Part shown: one piece after another, positions 10,706 to 32,673 of the stretch | How the letters are laid out: the number at the start of each line of letters is the position of its first letter | Position numbering within the stretch: position 1 is the stretch's first letter | Source of the DNA: Anaerolineales bacterium | Lineage (GTDB): Bacteria > Chloroflexota > Anaerolineae > Anaerolineales > UBA11579 | Length of the DNA: 64,000 nucleotides | Direction of reading: 5' to 3' | NCBI GenBank assembly: GCA_019637805.1 | Contig: JAHBVB010000002.1 | Span: 327,981-391,980, forward strand | Notes under the pieces: model-generated | Databases searched by the model: none | Seen by the model: only the letters and a program-made list of their open reading frames with translations | Told to the model about the DNA's origin: nothing | Translations under genes and position numbers: made by a program

Positions 10706-10745
10706 AATAAAAAGAGCCACAGCAGCTGCTGTGGCTCTTTTTATT
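10706..10745. terminator. Bidirectional terminator between convergent genes
   Basis: A perfect 40-bp palindrome with A-rich and T-rich ends (core AAAGAGCCACAGCAG and its complement) sits between ldh and the convergent metallopeptidase gene. It can terminate transcripts from both sides. Confidence 0.92.
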
Positions 10746-24513: not shown

Positions 24514-25509
24514 ATGGCATCTGGGGATTTATTAAAGAAACTGTTTCGCAGTTTTAAGAGGCAAGATACCGATGCTTTCTATAGTGCTGCCTTGGAGGTT
24601 ATTGCAGAAGAGAAGAAGAAAAACCACAATGTTCTTGCCGAAGATTTGCAAAAAATACTCAATAATGGTAATGATCACAAGTTTATTCCGGCCGATAGGT
24701 CTTTTGAACGTTTACCACAGGATAAAGACAAAGGAACTTTGTTAGTTGAGGTTAAATCTTCTAACAGAATGTTGTCGGATCTTGTACTAAGTCCTGATAT
24801 TGCCGACCAAATAACCACTATATTGGATGAGTTTAGAGATGGTTCAGTTCTGAGAACTTATGGATTGAGACCAAAACAGAAAATTTTATTTGCCGGTCCT
24901 CCCGGATGTGGAAAAACAGTCACTGCTGAGGCACTCGCAACTGAACTAGGACTACCACTTCTTTATACTCGTTTTGATGCAGTTATTTCTTCCTTACTTG
25001 GAGAAACTGCGGCGAATTTGCGGAAAGTGTTTGAATTTGCGCAAAAGGGGACATGGGTGGTTTTCTTTGATGAATTTGATGCCATAGGAAAATCTCGACA
25101 AGACATTGGCGAGCATGGTGAATTAAAGCGAGTAGTAAACACTTTTCTGCAACTTCTCGATAACTTTATGTCTGATAGTATTTTAATAGCTGCCACTAAT
25201 CACGAAACTCTTCTTGACAGGGCTATTTGGAGGAGGTTTGACGAGATCGTATACTTTAATAAGCCCGAACCAGATGAAATCAGGAAACTTGTAGCAATGA
25301 GACTGAGGGGATTTCCGCATTCTGGTTTAAATATTGATAGTTTTATCAGTTCTATGCATGGCTGGTCACATGCAGATATAGAGAGGGCAACGATTGATGC
25401 TATAAAAATGGTGATAATTGCTGGAGAATCAGAGGTCACCAATGTGTTTTTTCGCAAAGCGGTGGAGATGCAAAAAAACCGAATGGGTGTAATACTTCAA
25501 AATTCTTGA
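24514..25509 (+). CDS. AAA ATPase of a predicted anti-phage ATPase-protease pair (IteA-like)
   Basis: A 331-residue AAA ATPase. The N-terminal helical domain (1-110) is followed by Walker A GPPGCGKT (128-135), Walker B VVFFDEFD (182-189), sensor-1 Asn 229 (IAATNH) and Arg finger candidates 240-241. The C-terminal lid ends at about 330. It is followed at once by a subtilisin-like protease gene. This pair recurs in defence contexts; I recall the names IteA and IteS for it, unverified here. Codon use is AT-rich (ATA, AGA, TTA common), unlike all neighbours, which points to transfer. The ATG follows AAAGG. Confidence 0.85.
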   Translation: MASGDLLKKLFRSFKRQDTDAFYSAALEVIAEEKKKNHNVLAEDLQKILNNGNDHKFIPADRSFERLPQDKDKGTLLVEVKSSNRMLSDLVLSPDIADQITTILDEFRDGSVLRTYGLRPKQKILFAGPPGCGKTVTAEALATELGLPLLYTRFDAVISSLLGETAANLRKVFEFAQKGTWVVFFDEFDAIGKSRQDIGEHGELKRVVNTFLQLLDNFMSDSILIAATNHETLLDRAIWRRFDEIVYFNKPEPDEIRKLVAMRLRGFPHSGLNIDSFISSMHGWSHADIERATIDAIKMVIIAGESEVTNVFFRKAVEMQKNRMGVILQNS

Positions 25510-25529
25510 ATTCCTTTTTGGGGATAGTA

Positions 25530-27902
25530 ATGGCAGACTCAAATCAGCACCAGCATTTAAATTTCGAAAAACTGAATATTGAGCGTCCCAGAAGAAAAAT
25601 TGGAGGGCCGGGTTCTAGACCCCGTCGGGACAATAGACAACATGGTAAAGAAATTCTTGAGAGCATTAATCTTCTGAAACAAGACTTTGAATCCCAACAT
25701 CGTGAACTACCACCAAGATTTGATCCAGCGATGATATTTGCCCTTAAATTGGAGGGAAGCATTGACGAAATCGAATTAAAGCGAACCAGTTTAACTGTAC
25801 TGGCAGAAGAACCAGGTGGAGTTGTTGTATTGTTTTCTCCCGACCAGCTGTCTGGGTTTCAATCGAAAATCGAATCATATAGTGGAGAAATACCGCCGAA
25901 TCAAAAAAACCCTAGCTACAATTGGGTTGCGTCTGTAACCACAGATATGCATTTATGGGGAGCGCAAGATCGTATGGGGACAAAACTTGAGAAAAGGGAA
26001 ATCGTTGATCATTTGGAATATATTGTTGATGTAGAAATATGGGTCTATGGCAGCGTAGAAGAGCAACATAGTCGGCGTCTTCAGCTCACTAACTTTGTTA
26101 TTGAAAATAACGGACGCATTCTTGATAACTTCGAAAATGAATTTGTGAGCTTGTCGCGGATTAGCGTACACGGTGAAAGCCTTAAAAGACTATTAGGGAT
26201 CGATATTGTTCAAAGAATAGAACTTCCTCCTGAACCTTCGGTTCTTGTAAGTGAGCAGATAGGAACTTCAATTGATGCATTAGAAATCCTGGGCCCTCCA
26301 CCGGAAGGAAGTCCAGGTGTGTGCATAATTGATAGTGGTGTTGTCTCCAGCCATCCGTTGCTTGCTCAAGCAATTGGGGATGTCCGAGCAATTCCCGCTA
26401 GGTTTGGAGACGGGGTTGATGATAATGGGCATGGAACAAAGGTGTCTGGCTTAGTTCTTTGTGGCGATGTAAGCAAGGCAATAAGTGCTGGGAGCTTTGA
26501 GCCACAGATATTCATCTATTGTGTCAAGGTTACGAACAAAGACAATAGATTTGACGATGAGCGATTGATCGTAAACCAAATGGCTGATGCAATTCGAACT
26601 TTGCACGGGGAATACAACTGCCGGGTATTTAATATTTCTCTGGGCGATGAAGAGCAGATATACATGGGGGGAAGACCTTCTTCATGGGCTTATATTCTTG
26701 ATGTACTTGCACGGGATTTGGACATAGTCATTGTGGTCTCTAGTGGAAATCAAACCACGGTTCAAGGCGTCACTGGCCCTGACGCAAATATGATAATATC
26801 TCGATATCCAGATCACTTACTGGATGACGAATCGAGAATAATTGAACCTGCCACAGCTGTTAATGCATTGACGGTGGGGAGTTTAGTTAATTCAGAGAAT
26901 AGCTATCATGCTGTAGCAAATGGAAATGACCCTGGATTTAGGGTTTTTGCCCCACTACATTTCCCCTCCCCCTTTACTAGAGTTGGCCCGGGAGTAAACG
27001 GCTCGATAAAACCAGATGTTGTTGAAGAGGGTGGCAGTTTTATTTGGTCGCGATATGTGGATGGCTTTACTAATGATCCTGAGCAAGAAATTGTTTCAAC
27101 TAACCATGAATTCTTGCAACGCTTGTTTACCTTTGATAAGGGTACAAGTTATGCTGCAGCCAAAGTTTCCCATCTTGCCGGCCTGCTATTAAGGGAGTAT
27201 CCCCATAGTTCGGCTAATTTGATTAGAGCTTTGATTGGTGCCTCTTCGGAAATCCCTGCGACGTTCAATCGGCGTTATAACTTGCCTGAACTACTTCGGA
27301 TGGTGGGCTATGGGCGACCAGACCCCAAGAAGGCATTGTATTCAAGTGATCAAAGAGTAACTTTGGTTGCTGAAGATGAAATTGGAATAGACAAACTCCA
27401 TCTTTACGAAGTACCGATACCTGAAGAATTTTCCTCAGGTGCAGGAAGGCGGAGGATAAGCGTAACTCTGGCTTATGATCCACCAGTCAGAACAACTAGA
27501 CTTGAATATTTGGGGTGTTTCATGGAATTTAATCTTTTTAGGGGGCTTACTATTGATCAAATTGTTGATTGGTACGCTGAAAGGCCCCAAGGCTTTCAGC
27601 CAGAACAATTCGGCAAGGCACATGCATGTCCAATGGAGCCAAGGGTGCGATTGAGAAGCAAAGGCACTTTGCAGAAAGGATATTTTGAGTTTTCTCGGAA
27701 TAGAGCGCTTCAGGAATATCAGGGTGATACGCTTCACCTTTTGATAAAGTGCAAATCCGGCTGGGCCACTGAGGATAATCTTGCTACCCAGCGTTATGCC
27801 CTAGCGATAACTATGGAACATCTAGAGGAAGACATTGCTATTTACAATAGAGTTCAACAACGCTTGCAACAACAAGTTCGTGTTCGGGCCACTGCAGCCT
27901 AG
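25530..27902 (+). CDS. Subtilisin-like S8 protease of the anti-phage pair (IteS-like)
   Basis: A 790-residue protease. The first 240 residues form a charged, unknown domain that may recognise targets or the ATPase. The S8 domain follows, with Asp 268 (CIIDSGV), His 301 (DNGHGTKVSG), oxyanion Asn 407 (SSGNQ) and Ser 540 (KGTSYAAAKVSHLAG), so the triad is complete. About 200 further residues complete the chain. No signal peptide is present, so it acts inside the cell. I choose ATG 25530 (GGGGA upstream); a TTG at 25506 overlaps the ATPase stop. The base composition is as AT-rich as the ATPase gene. Confidence 0.85.
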   Translation: MADSNQHQHLNFEKLNIERPRRKIGGPGSRPRRDNRQHGKEILESINLLKQDFESQHRELPPRFDPAMIFALKLEGSIDEIELKRTSLTVLAEEPGGVVVLFSPDQLSGFQSKIESYSGEIPPNQKNPSYNWVASVTTDMHLWGAQDRMGTKLEKREIVDHLEYIVDVEIWVYGSVEEQHSRRLQLTNFVIENNGRILDNFENEFVSLSRISVHGESLKRLLGIDIVQRIELPPEPSVLVSEQIGTSIDALEILGPPPEGSPGVCIIDSGVVSSHPLLAQAIGDVRAIPARFGDGVDDNGHGTKVSGLVLCGDVSKAISAGSFEPQIFIYCVKVTNKDNRFDDERLIVNQMADAIRTLHGEYNCRVFNISLGDEEQIYMGGRPSSWAYILDVLARDLDIVIVVSSGNQTTVQGVTGPDANMIISRYPDHLLDDESRIIEPATAVNALTVGSLVNSENSYHAVANGNDPGFRVFAPLHFPSPFTRVGPGVNGSIKPDVVEEGGSFIWSRYVDGFTNDPEQEIVSTNHEFLQRLFTFDKGTSYAAAKVSHLAGLLLREYPHSSANLIRALIGASSEIPATFNRRYNLPELLRMVGYGRPDPKKALYSSDQRVTLVAEDEIGIDKLHLYEVPIPEEFSSGAGRRRISVTLAYDPPVRTTRLEYLGCFMEFNLFRGLTIDQIVDWYAERPQGFQPEQFGKAHACPMEPRVRLRSKGTLQKGYFEFSRNRALQEYQGDTLHLLIKCKSGWATEDNLATQRYALAITMEHLEEDIAIYNRVQQRLQQQVRVRATAA

Positions 27903-28476: not shown

Positions 28477-28770
28477 TTATCCCTGGCTAAACGCCAAATA
28501 CAGCAGTCCCAGGCCAAACAGCAGCAGGATCAGCAATACGCCCGTCTTGCGGCGCAACTGGCCCTCCAGCACCAACAGGGCCGCCTGGCTGAGGAAGAAC
28601 AAGCCGCCCAGCCCCAGGGCCAGCGGGTTGTAGCCCGCCTCTTCCTGGCCGAACAGGTCGCCCAGGAACATCGACAGCCCTATCGGGATCAGCAAGGCCA
28701 ATGAAAACACCCGCCAGCGCGGCAGGCCCGGCGTGGCCAGCATCTCGGTCAGACGTTCAAAGATCTTCAT
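28477..28770 (-). CDS. Small membrane protein, unknown
   Basis: A 97-residue protein with a short amphipathic start (MKIFERLTEMLATPGLPRWR) and three hydrophobic helices (about 21-36, 49-66 and 76-94). No family is recognised. It is encoded convergent to the cold-shock gene and divergent from the T-box leader. A start at 28770 is the only sensible one. Confidence 0.55.
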   Translation of the reverse strand: MKIFERLTEMLATPGLPRWRVFSLALLIPIGLSMFLGDLFGQEEAGYNPLALGLGGLFFLSQAALLVLEGQLRRKTGVLLILLLFGLGLLYLAFSQG

Positions 28771-28869
28771 AGCTACCGTCGAAAAGAATTATACAAGGCC
28801 GTCCGATAGCTACCCCTGACAGCTTGCGGCTAAGAGCCAATCGCTAATAGCTTTTTGTGGCATAATGCG

Positions 28870-29170
28870 CCCACAGGCTGAGACGAAAACGAGTACGCCC
28901 GTCACGGCTGGCAAGCGACCCCGGGAGAGTGAGAGCCGGGGCAGTCCAGCGGGCCGAAGATCCTTTCCGAGCCTAGACCTGAACGGCCACCGGCCTAGTA
29001 AGCGATACGGCCCGCCCACCGTTACCGGGCGCGGAGATGTATGCTCAGCTTGCTGATCGTAGTCTTCGACAGAGTGCTACGCCAAGCGTAGAATGCAGGT
29101 GGTACCGCGGGAGCAAAACTCTCGTCCTGCACACTGAATTCAGTGTGCAGGACGAGAGTTTTGCTTTAGC
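28870..29170 (+). ncRNA. T-box riboswitch (isoleucine) of ileS
   Basis: A tRNA-sensing leader of about 300 nt before the isoleucyl-tRNA synthetase gene. Stem I begins near AGTA (28893-28896). The specifier candidate is ATC at 28960-28962 in GAAGATC, an Ile codon. The T-box core GGTGGTACCGCG lies at 29098-29109. GCAGG before it can pair with CCTGC (29126-29130) as antiterminator. The competing terminator is a perfect palindrome with 27-bp arms (29112-29138 and 29139-29165). Uncharged tRNA-Ile would favour read-through. A likely -10 (CATAAT) is at 28861-28866. Confidence 0.9.
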
Positions 29171-29256
29171 GCCTAGCTTTTAGTGAATAGCTAGTGGCTA
29201 ACAGCTGCACTTATAGCGTATGGCTTATGGCTTAGCCAAACAAGGAGCAACACAAC

Positions 29257-32200
29257 ATGGCATTTCGCGAAGTACCCAACAAACTCGACTTCATTGCGAT
29301 GGAGCATTCCATCCTCAAATTCTGGGACGAGACCCAGGCGCTGGCCAAGCTGCGCAGTCTGCGCCTGGGCGCGCCCAAGTGGAGCTTTGTTGACGGCCCC
29401 ATCACCGCCAACAACCCGATGGGCGTGCACCATGGCTGGGGCCGCACCTACAAAGACCTCTACAATCGCTATTACGCCATGCAAGGCCGCGAACTGCGCT
29501 ACCAGCAGGGCTTCGACTGCCAGGGCCTGTGGGTCGAGGTCGAGGTGGAAAAGGAGCTCAACTTCGCCAGCAAACGCGACATCGAAGCCTACGGTCTGGC
29601 CAGCTTCGTGCTGCGCTGCAAAGAGCGCGTGCTGCGCTATGCCGCGGTGCAGACCGAGCAGTCCATCCGCCTGGGCTACTGGATGGAGTGGGACTCGCCA
29701 GACCAACTGCGCTGGCTGGGCGAGCAGTTGGCCGCCAACCCCGGGCAGGTCATCGAATATCAAGGGCCGGCCGGCATCGCCGAAGGCACCGCCGAGCAGA
29801 TCGTCGGCCGCCTGGGCATGCCCGAGCTGGGCGGCAGCTACTTCACCTTCAGCGACGAGAACAACTACATCATCTGGGCCTTCCTCAAGAAATGCTGGGA
29901 GAAGGGCTGGCTCTACCGTGGGGCCGACTCGATGCCCTGGTGCCCGCGCTGCGCCACCGGTATCAGCCAGCACGAGATCGAGTCGGATGGCTACAAAGAA
30001 GTCACCCACCGCACCGTCACCCTGCGCTTCCCGCTGCGCGGCCGCCAGAACGAAAGCCTGCTGATCTGGACCACCACACCCTGGACGCTGCCCAGCAACG
30101 TGGCCGCCGCCGTCGGCCCTGACCTGACCTACGCCAAAGTGCGCCAGGGCGAGCAGGTGTACTACCTCTCCAAGGGTACGCTGGGCATGCTGCAGGGCGA
30201 GCACGAACTGCTGGCCGAGCTGCAGGGCCGCGAGATGGAAGGCTGGGCCTATGACGGCCCCTTCGACGAGCTCGCCCCGGCCCAGGCTGAGGGCGGCTTC
30301 ACCGAAGTGGCCGAGATCAAAGAAGGCATCAGCCAGAACGCGGCCCAGGCCCACCGCGTCATCCTCTGGGATGGAGTGGGGGAAGAAGAAGGCACCGGCA
30401 TCGTGCACATCGCCCCCGGCTGCGGCGCCGACGACTACCGCCTGGGCCGCGAGCAGCAGCTGCCCGTCGTGGTCTGCATCGACGACGAGGGCCGCTTCCT
30501 GCCCGGCACTGCCGATTGGCTGCAGGGCAAAGACGTCAACGAAGCCCGCCAGCCCATCCTCGACGCGCTGGAGCGCAAGGGCATCCTCTACCACACCAGC
30601 GACTACACCCACCGCTATCCCACCTGCTGGCGCTGCAAGACCGAGCTGGTCTGGCGCGTGGTGGACGAATGGTTCATCAGCATGGGCCAGACGTACGACA
30701 AGCCCCGCCAGGATCTGACCCAGGCCGAGAAAGACGCCAGCCTGCGTTATCAGATCATGGACGTCGTCGACCAGATCCGCTGGGTGCCGGAGTTCGGCCA
30801 CGCCCGAGAGATGGATTGGCTGCGCAACATGCACGACTGGATGATCAGCAAGAAGCGCTACTGGGGTCTGGCGCTGCCCATCTGGGTCTGTGACGATTGC
30901 AGCCAGCACACCGTGTTGGGCAGCAACACCGAACTGCACGAACGCGCCGTGGCGGGCTGGGATGAATTCGCCGGCCACACCCCGCACCGCCCTTACATCG
31001 ACGCGGTCAAGTTAGCCTGCGAGCATTGCGGCGGCCAAATGAGCCGCATCCCCGATGTGGGCAACCCCTGGCTGGACGCCGGTGTGGTGCCCTTCAGCAC
31101 CCTGCGCTACCGCCAGGAACCGGACTATTGGAACAAATGGTTCCCCGCCGATTGGATCAGCGAAAGCTTCCCCGGCCAGTTCCGCAATTGGTTTTACAGC
31201 CTCTTGGCCATGGGTACCGTGCTGGCCGAGACCGCGCCTTTCCTCAACCTGTTCAGCTATTCCACTCTGTTGGATGAGCAGGGCAAGCCCATGCATAAAA
31301 GCGCCGGCAACTCCATTGAATTCAACGAAGCCGCCGACAAGATGGGCGTGGATGTGATGCGCTGGATGTACGCCGCACAAAAGCCGGAGAACAACCTGCT
31401 CTTCGGCTACAACAAGGCCGACGATGTGCGCCGCCGCTTCCTCATCCCGCTGTGGAATGTCTACAGCTTCTTCGCCACCTACGCCCGCTTGGACGGCTGG
31501 ACGCCGGACGCCGCCGCTTTTGACGCGGATCACCCCGAAGGCGCCACGCCCCAGTCCGAGAATCCGCTCGACCGCTGGATCCTGGCGCGCCTCAACCAGA
31601 CCGTCACTCAGGTCAGCCATTCGCTGGACAATTGGGACGCTTTCGCCAGCACGCTGGCCGTCGAAGCCTTGATCGATGACCTGACCAACTGGTATGTGCG
31701 CCGCAGCCGGCGCCGCTTCTGGCGCAGTGAGCAGGACGCCGACAAGGGCCAGGCCTACGCCACGCTGTACCATGTGCTGGTCAAGCTGGTGCGCCTGATC
31801 GCCCCGCTTACGCCCTTCGTCACCGAGGAGATCTATCAGAATCTGGTTGTCAACCAGAATGCGGATGCGCACTCCAGTGTCCACATGACGCGTTGGCCCC
31901 TGGCCGACCCGGCCGCGCAGGATGACGCCCTGGTGGCGCAGATGGGTCTGGCCCGCCAAGTGGCCAGCCTGGGCCTCAGCGCCCGCGGCAATGCGAATCT
32001 TAAAGTCCGCCAGCCGCTGGCCGCCGTGCGTGTGCACGCCGGCGGGGCGGCCAGCAGCCTGCCGGACTACCTGACCGAAATCGTCCAGGACGAGCTCAAC
32101 GTCAAAGCCTTGCTCTTCGTCCAGGACGCCGGCGAACTGGTGACCTATCGCCTGCAGCCGGACAACGTCAAGCTCGGCCCGCGCTTTGGCGCCGATTTCC

Positions 32201-32673
32201 CAGCACTGCGCAAGGCCCTCGAAGCGTTGGATCCGGCGGGGGTCAAAGCCCAGCTCGACCGCGGCGAAAGCGTGGAAGTGCATCTGGGCGGCCAGGCGCA
32301 CGCGTTGGCCGCCGACGAGATCTTGGTCAGCAGCCAGCCGGCCGAAGGCCTGGCGGTGGCGGCCGACAAAGGCGTCACCGTCGGCCTGGACACCGCGCTG
32401 ACGCCGGAGCTCAAGGCCGAAGGCACCGCCCGCGAGATCGTGCGCCGCATCCAGGACATGCGCAAGAAGGCCGGCTTCAACATCGAAGACCGCATCCACA
32501 CCAGCTACCAGGCCGCCGGCCCTCTCGCCGCCGTCCTGACCGACTGGGCCGACTACATTAAAGCCGAAACGCTCAGCGAGCAGCTGAGCGAGGACACCCC
32601 AGCGGCCGACGCCTACAGCGAGGAGCACAAGCTGGATGGCGAAGTTGTCACCTTAGCCGTCTTTCGTAGTTGA
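29257..32673 (+). CDS. ileS: Isoleucyl-tRNA synthetase with altered GXHH signature (IleRS2-like)
   Basis: A 1138-residue class I synthetase that charges tRNA-Ile. The first signature is PMGVHHGWGR (residues 54-63), so the usual HXGH is replaced by GXHH. The KMSKS-like loop reads PMHKSAGNS (Lys 681). An editing domain (about 200-420), the catalytic domain, the anticodon-binding domain and a long C-terminal part are present. The length and HKSAGN loop fit the long, eukaryote-like IleRS2 group. The Ile T-box leader confirms amino acid identity. GGAG stands before the ATG at 29257. Confidence 0.92.
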   Translation: MAFREVPNKLDFIAMEHSILKFWDETQALAKLRSLRLGAPKWSFVDGPITANNPMGVHHGWGRTYKDLYNRYYAMQGRELRYQQGFDCQGLWVEVEVEKELNFASKRDIEAYGLASFVLRCKERVLRYAAVQTEQSIRLGYWMEWDSPDQLRWLGEQLAANPGQVIEYQGPAGIAEGTAEQIVGRLGMPELGGSYFTFSDENNYIIWAFLKKCWEKGWLYRGADSMPWCPRCATGISQHEIESDGYKEVTHRTVTLRFPLRGRQNESLLIWTTTPWTLPSNVAAAVGPDLTYAKVRQGEQVYYLSKGTLGMLQGEHELLAELQGREMEGWAYDGPFDELAPAQAEGGFTEVAEIKEGISQNAAQAHRVILWDGVGEEEGTGIVHIAPGCGADDYRLGREQQLPVVVCIDDEGRFLPGTADWLQGKDVNEARQPILDALERKGILYHTSDYTHRYPTCWRCKTELVWRVVDEWFISMGQTYDKPRQDLTQAEKDASLRYQIMDVVDQIRWVPEFGHAREMDWLRNMHDWMISKKRYWGLALPIWVCDDCSQHTVLGSNTELHERAVAGWDEFAGHTPHRPYIDAVKLACEHCGGQMSRIPDVGNPWLDAGVVPFSTLRYRQEPDYWNKWFPADWISESFPGQFRNWFYSLLAMGTVLAETAPFLNLFSYSTLLDEQGKPMHKSAGNSIEFNEAADKMGVDVMRWMYAAQKPENNLLFGYNKADDVRRRFLIPLWNVYSFFATYARLDGWTPDAAAFDADHPEGATPQSENPLDRWILARLNQTVTQVSHSLDNWDAFASTLAVEALIDDLTNWYVRRSRRRFWRSEQDADKGQAYATLYHVLVKLVRLIAPLTPFVTEEIYQNLVVNQNADAHSSVHMTRWPLADPAAQDDALVAQMGLARQVASLGLSARGNANLKVRQPLAAVRVHAGGAASSLPDYLTEIVQDELNVKALLFVQDAGELVTYRLQPDNVKLGPRFGADFPALRKALEALDPAGVKAQLDRGESVEVHLGGQAHALAADEILVSSQPAEGLAVAADKGVTVGLDTALTPELKAEGTAREIVRRIQDMRKKAGFNIEDRIHTSYQAAGPLAAVLTDWADYIKAETLSEQLSEDTPAADAYSEEHKLDGEVVTLAVFRS

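Follow-up and report, generated by a model that had tools for sequence, protein, structure and literature searches.

A T-box leader with a long, perfectly palindromic terminator upstream of the isoleucyl-tRNA synthetase gene of an Anaerolineales bacterium

The window analysed here, a stretch of 64,000 nucleotides (G000:C2:327981-391980) from an uncultured Anaerolineales genome assembled into 5 contigs (2.34 Mb), carries an ileS gene on its plus strand (29257-32673), preceded by a Shine-Dalgarno sequence AAGGAG (29242-29247, plus strand) and by a full-length transcription-type T-box leader (28871-29165). An extended -10 element, TG-G-CATAAT (TGGCATAAT, 28858-28866, plus strand), present upstream of all 10 ileS leaders of the genus, would place the transcript start at about 28873. 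We call this promoter putative because a consensus promoter scan missed it (no good -35 element); the only site listed by the scan, at 29066-29094, was discarded because it lies within the T-box leader. Degenerate 7-nt repeats (TAGCTAT/TAGCTAA type) are present on both sides of the leader (28761-28861 and 29141-29241) and also behind the leuS T-box of the same genome (G000:C1:237855-237886). Repeats of this type give 25 matches in the genome at up to three mismatches (12 and 13 by strand, many of them overlapping) and none for the reversed control, but in the window alone their density is not above chance, the same maximum (7) being reached by 2 of 20 shuffles. The repeat block 3' of the terminator is absent from the close relative L041. 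Elsewhere in the window, a gene pair encoding an AAA ATPase and an S8 protease (24514-27902) resembles the anti-phage pair IteA/IteS, with scores below the NCBIfam cut-offs (246.7 of 510 bits and 118.8 of 900 bits).

The ileS product (1138 amino acids) passes the isoleucine-tRNA ligase profile TIGR00392 with 689.5 bits (cut-off 621.4) and is the sole full-length ileS match in the genome, the others being partial, with 27-36% identity. Where HXGH and KMSKS are expected, it carries GVHH and MHKS, respectively; of 80 related loci, 78 show A/GXHH and two are not readable. About 50 extra residues are apparently located before residue 190, at which the best TIGR00392 stretch begins with profile position 140. 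The best matches among structure chains, judged by sequence match, are the 1032-residue chains 8c8u, 8c8v, 8c8w and 8c9d (up to 649 bits), followed by 1ile (588 bits), whereas chains of 917-921 residues reach at most 227 bits. We take the four former chains to be the IleRS2 structures of the GXHH/mupirocin study and the 917-921-residue chains to be IleRS1. The synthetase, which the original prediction had called odd, is thus probably a type 2 (IleRS2) enzyme of the GXHH sort, a motif reported to confer mupirocin hyper-resistance on IleRS2 (PMC10485003). The GVHH motif is shared with the enzymes described in that study; two differences are the MHKS signature, a string not present in the main text of the article, and the T-box preceding the gene, a word absent from the same text.

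Gathering-level Rfam scans were nearly empty, returning a single tRNA and no T-box for the whole window and just one T-box for ten related loci, and a permissive search was therefore used. With Infernal (cmscan), the T-box model RF00230 matches positions 28871-29132 of the plus strand over its complete length (model positions 1-219), with 78.1 bits and an E-value of 2.9e-17, the score being equal in a search of the genome. The T-box leader claimed by the original prediction is thereby borne out by the full-length match, although its score falls below the Rfam gathering cut-off of 93 for this model, which formally corresponds to a ground for refutation named in that prediction. We do not take the low score as a refutation; the cut-off is a database threshold and not a structural feature, and the leader is filed as a T-box because its E-value and anatomy fit and because six of the seven T-boxes of its genome miss the cut-off. 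These seven were identified in the whole genome at E ≤ 1, one of them being weak (E 0.0016), and those below the cut-off include the leaders of pheS, leuS and serS. The genes downstream of four of them (trpS, pheS, leuS and serS) each score above their NCBIfam cut-off; valS and the gene behind L006 in this genome were assigned by eye, as were the trpS- and pheS-type leaders of other genomes. Among 61 genomes, counting this one, all contain a T-box at E ≤ 0.1 and 40 contain one above the cut-off. The Rfam cut-off seems too strict for the T-boxes of these Anaerolineales.

The RF00230 alignment assigns positions 28876-28973 (plus strand; model positions 1-103) to Stem I, in which we recognize a GA/kink-turn motif (28879-28884 with 28968-28970), a specifier loop, AGUA (28892-28895) opposite the specifier, and apical loops, the names of these sub-motifs following PMC7583486 and common usage. 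The ATC triplet proposed earlier as a specifier candidate corresponds to an AUC (Ile) codon at 28960-28962 (plus strand), in the context GAA-G-AUC, and lies inside the Stem I specifier internal loop of the Infernal alignment. The codon is identical, within GAA-N-AUC, in all 10 aligned ileS leaders (nine from this genus and one from another). A pattern search accepting GAA-N-AUC at any place within the 260 nt preceding the core, inside the specifier loop or not, recovered it in 34 of the 42 leaders whose core was recognised; of the eight missed leaders, L086 and L127 do have GAA-N-AUC. The base 3' of the specifier is C, here and in most relatives compared, where the Rfam consensus has a purine. 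Stem I is followed by Stem II, with GAA (28981-28983) and AGUA (28997-29000), and by Stem IIA/B with the F-box CCGUUA (29019-29024), together spanning 28974-29024 of the plus strand in the alignment. The purine string GAGUG, Stem III (CUACGC/GCGUAG) and the following AA (29072-29093, plus strand, same alignment) fit the rule 5'-RRRxG-stem III-AA-3' (PMC7583486).

The antiterminator (29094-29131, plus strand) is the best fold of 29090-29132, with -16.4 kcal/mol, and consists of helix A1 (29094-29099/29126-29131), the bulge UGGUACC (29100-29106) and helix A2 (29107-29113/29119-29125). The terminator hairpin (29112-29165, plus strand) reaches -47.6 kcal/mol. Both folds were obtained and are mutually exclusive, sharing the region 29112-29131, in agreement with the antiterminator complementarity noticed earlier. 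The scan of 30 of the 48 tRNA loci of the genome revealed a tRNA-Ile(GAU) with discriminator A, whose acceptor strand reads CAGGCCC followed by A, with CCA not encoded; the UGGU of the bulge is complementary to the ACCA end of this cognate tRNA. Both tRNA-Ile(GAU) and its discriminator A agree with the UGGU bulge and with the specifier "C rule" quoted in PMC7583486. Together with the TIGR00392 score, the AUC specifier, the UGGU bulge and the tRNA confirm the isoleucine identity of the synthetase, for which the leader had been cited as support.

The leader thus resembles the class I transcriptional T-boxes (RF00230; PMC7583486) in possessing Stem I with a kink-turn motif and specifier loop, Stem II, Stem IIA/B with the F-box, the Stem III purine string, a UGGN bulge, antiterminator and terminator, all in the usual order. 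It differs from them in its score below the Rfam cut-off, in the approximately 50 nt (29025-29076) separating the F-box from Stem III, and in its terminator, whose arms are 27 nt long and perfectly paired. T-boxes upstream of ileS have been reported in Dehalococcoides, which belongs to the same phylum (Chloroflexi), and in Deinococcus (PMC2494555); going by their description in that source, the regulated gene and amino acid are the same as here.

The two terminator arms (29112-29138 and 29139-29165) are 100% complementary over their 27 nt with 0 nt between them, which confirms the perfect 54-nt palindrome of the original prediction. The DNA has no loop, whereas the RNA would form 25 bp closed by the 4-nt loop AAUU. 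The arms were also correctly described there as unusually long. None of the other T-boxes in a set of 34 (36 loci including this ileS leader, minus L024 and L028) has a perfect arm as long as its 27 bp; the next-longest are 22 bp (G010) and 21 bp (same genome as the window), both in trpS-type leaders, and the remaining 31 have at most 13 bp. Perfect hairpin arms reached at most 12 bp in 20 Markov shuffles of the window, and in 664 kb of its own genome the palindrome is the longest of 69 perfect hairpins, the count covering those whose centre is 3 or 4 nt and whose outer arm has 12 bp or more. The palindrome is thus real and extreme, and stands at the end of a continuous distribution. Its basal 7 bp correspond to an A-rich stretch paired with the U-tract, an arrangement shared with further hairpins in the window (e.g., 10706-10745, with 20-bp arms). 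Termination may be very tight, as the original prediction had supposed, but the U-tract UUUUGCUUU (29159-29167, plus strand) is interrupted by GC and lies mostly within the palindrome; a terminator scan reports the hairpin as 29117-29160 with the tail TTGCTTTAGC. Matches of the palindrome to micro-RNA families were discarded as an effect of the long hairpin, being far below the cut-offs and, for several of them, on both strands.

The length of the terminator varies widely within the genus. In the ten ileS leaders, the longest perfect arm is 27 bp in the window, 26 in G003, 23 in G010, 21 in both G001 and G007, 12 in G002, 7 in both G004 and G008, and 5 in both G009 and G005 (arms of the nine relatives being counted within 100 nt of the T-box core); the G002 stem is itself long but interrupted by one G-U pair. 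Long perfect arms are also present in trpS-type leaders (21 bp in this genome, 22 in G010, 13 in G003, 22 in G007, 21 in G008 and 23 in G002). A simple pattern recognised the T-box core in 40 of 75 named orthologous loci (80 fetched minus five without upstream sequence). Among these 40, the three long-armed genus members (26, 23 and 21 bp) are followed by L078 with 16 bp, all others having at most 11 bp. From the 35 loci without the core pattern, seven were tested with Infernal: L057 has a T-box directly 5' of ileS, L046 and L048 have one approximately 1.6 and 0.8 kb upstream, respectively, and in the other four no T-box was detected at E ≤ 0.001. Compared by synthetase, TGS_CHL2 (96% protein identity), TGS_CHL7 (89%) and ACE_CHL1 (77%), all MAGs named "Anaerolineales bacterium", are among the closest named records.

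The original prediction also considered an RNase III-type history possible. In this reading, the palindrome would have a second role as an RNase III site, the stem of read-through transcripts refolding and being cut to create a new 5' end of the ileS mRNA. The perfect 25-bp RNA stem, which exceeds two helical turns, would be suitable for such a role, and the genome encodes RNase III (243.7 bits, cut-off 166.25). However, in four of the ten ileS leaders of the genus, the perfect arms located up to 100 nt from the core reach at most 7 bp, and an RNase III site is therefore not a conserved need; we consider this additional role improbable.

To examine pairing in the terminator, we compared the five long-armed leaders, i.e., half of the ten ileS leaders of the genus, picked for their long terminators and leaving out G002 and the four short ones. 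In these leaders, 96.6% of the terminator cells are paired, against 31-50% in slid controls, and both strands carry changes at 11 of the 25 terminator pairs; two basal pairs are broken in L117 and L126. Since the choice of long-armed leaders itself favours pairing, the evidence lies in the both-side changes and not in the 96.6%. Further pair types are not above shuffles in the same five leaders (11 versus a mean of 14.2). The apex sequences differ between two sets of leaders (window, G003 and G010 versus G001 and G007), which implies that the long stem either arose twice or persisted during sequence turnover. From these sequence comparisons, elongation at the level of the lineage appears to be the best explanation for the arm length.

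The changes on both arms in relatives also disfavour the inverted-repeat history suggested for the palindrome in the original prediction, and point to selection for pairing over a recent inverted-repeat insertion. Such an insertion, or else a hairpin-templated (template-switch) mutation of the DNA rendering both arms and centre symmetric, nevertheless deserves consideration. The trpS leader of this genome differs from the matching G010 leader by one inserted base, placed symmetrically in each arm, and complementary centres are found in 35 of the 69 perfect hairpins counted above in 664 kb, against an assumed 26%. However, both-arm changes are also expected from selection for RNA pairing, and five other genomes pooled (two from the same genus and three more distant) give 27 of 59 (Fisher p 0.60); symmetric hairpins are therefore nothing special to this genome. 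The idea that it makes unusually symmetric hairpins was accordingly rejected, the comparison with the five pooled genomes giving p values of 0.25, 0.60 and 0.22 at three arm thresholds. Overall, an origin of the palindrome at the DNA level seems unlikely. Complementary hairpin centres remain above the assumed 26% both in this genome (samples L197-L206 and L237-L256 plus the window) and in the five pooled genomes, which may hint at a DNA-level process not specific to it.

Folding of growing transcripts from 29090, without tRNA, suggests how the two structures would compete. The antiterminator is the best fold when the transcript ends at 29132-29140 (-16.4 to -16.7 kcal/mol). At 29142 and 29144, a third fold is more stable than the antiterminator, by 2.6 and 0.8 kcal/mol, respectively, and at 29146-29148 the best fold combines a 5-bp A1, A2 and a 6-bp apical terminator hairpin. 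From 29150, about 19 nt past the completion of A1, the terminator displaces A1 (-26.1 versus -21.9 kcal/mol) and later A2. The leader up to 29133 is no more stable than shuffled sequences (z -0.85, 41 of 200 shuffles being at least as good) and its most stable free fold differs from that of a T-box, whereas z reaches -5.93 for the leader up to 29180, the strength coming with the terminator. This free fold, the very stable terminator and the score below the Rfam cut-off could be read as signs of a decayed T-box that no longer switches and has left a plain intrinsic terminator. We consider this very improbable, as the specifier, the bulge, the F-box and the A1/A2 complementarity are retained in species whose synthetases share 73-96% identity.

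We thus favour, with a probability of roughly 95%, ordinary tRNA-Ile-dependent antitermination combined with a terminator elongated at the lineage level as the best explanation for the locus; it draws on the anatomy of the leader, its conservation, the tRNA match and the both-arm changes, all of which are directly observed. The AUC specifier in Stem I would pair with the GAU anticodon, and the UGGU bulge with the 3' ACCA of uncharged tRNA, stabilising the antiterminator (29094-29131) so that RNA polymerase could continue into ileS. With charged tRNA or no tRNA, the 3' arm of the terminator would capture the 3' strands of A1 and A2, and transcription would stop near 29160-29170. In the folding model, the long arms would allow an apical terminator hairpin (around 29131-29146) to coexist with the antiterminator and then to branch-migrate through A1 and A2; terminator folding may begin at the elongated apex ahead of any invasion of the antiterminator. 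Switching, its kinetics and the strength of termination are predictions from these features.

A different peculiarity was observed at the other end of the sister leaders. The Stem I kink-turn and basal helix, present in the window, appear to be missing in six of the ten ileS leaders of the genus: L042 (G008), L043 (G009), L117 (G007), L126 (G001), L127 (G005) and L129 (G002). A simple rule applied to 44 ileS leaders located the specifier loop in 35 and gave no assignment for nine. GAGY, the 3' strand of the kink-turn, follows the specifier within 14 nt in 29 of these 35 and is missing in six; three of the nine unassigned leaders (L051, L071 and L102) show GAGC. In the six leaders lacking GAGY, the specifier is followed by CUCUGUUG(U/C)A(C/U)GCAA, the linker CUCUGUUGUACGCAA is nearly conserved, and the -10 element lies nearer to the lower Stem I helix. 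The distance from the end of TGGCATAAT to AGUA is 13-19 nt in five of the six, versus 25-27 nt in the four leaders with the motif (window, G003, G004 and G010). In L129, UUGC can pair with GCAA in a fold, but its bases are located where the promoter discriminator is expected. As judged by eye, the pheS-type leaders of the same six genomes retain GAG(U) after the specifier, and the standard kink-turn seems to be missing as well from the trpS-type leaders L187 (G007), L190 (G008) and L191 (G002) and from L004 and L005 (leuS) of the window's genome. In that genome, the weak T-box L007 (G000:C2:563052-563290, 24.7 bits), located before serS (441.3 bits), likewise has by eye an odd or reduced Stem I.

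According to PMC7583486, T-boxes with Stem II likely require the kink-turn, and any T-box working without it, as proposed for the ileS leader of S. aureus, would be of interest; among the literature matches listed on this point, the phrase "without a K-turn" was found only in that review. We propose tentatively, at somewhat less than even odds, that the ileS T-box of the genus has been remodelled at both ends. In several species, the terminator would have been elongated into a perfect palindrome exceeding 20 bp, and a sister group of six species (G001, G002, G005, G007, G008 and G009), to which the window does not belong, would have predicted transcript starts near the lower Stem I helix and no kink-turn, with Stem I, Stem II, the F-box, the specifier and the T-box conserved. 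If this is true, the sister leaders would be a natural case of a T-box that contains Stem II and works in the absence of a kink-turn.

The ileS leader of the window looks like a normal tRNA-sensing T-box, ordinary in kind, whose unusual feature is its long perfect terminator hairpin. For annotation, which it chiefly supports, the AUC specifier of the T-box fixes the isoleucine identity of the gene, and six of the seven T-boxes of this genome illustrate how many are overlooked by the Rfam cut-off in these Anaerolineales. Should the sister leaders that show no visible kink-turn prove functional, they would be relevant to a question left open by the 2020 review (PMC7583486). Finally, the occurrence in front of the same gene, within one genus, of arms of 5-7 bp and of 21-27 bp provides matched natural cases for relating terminator length to competition with the antiterminator.
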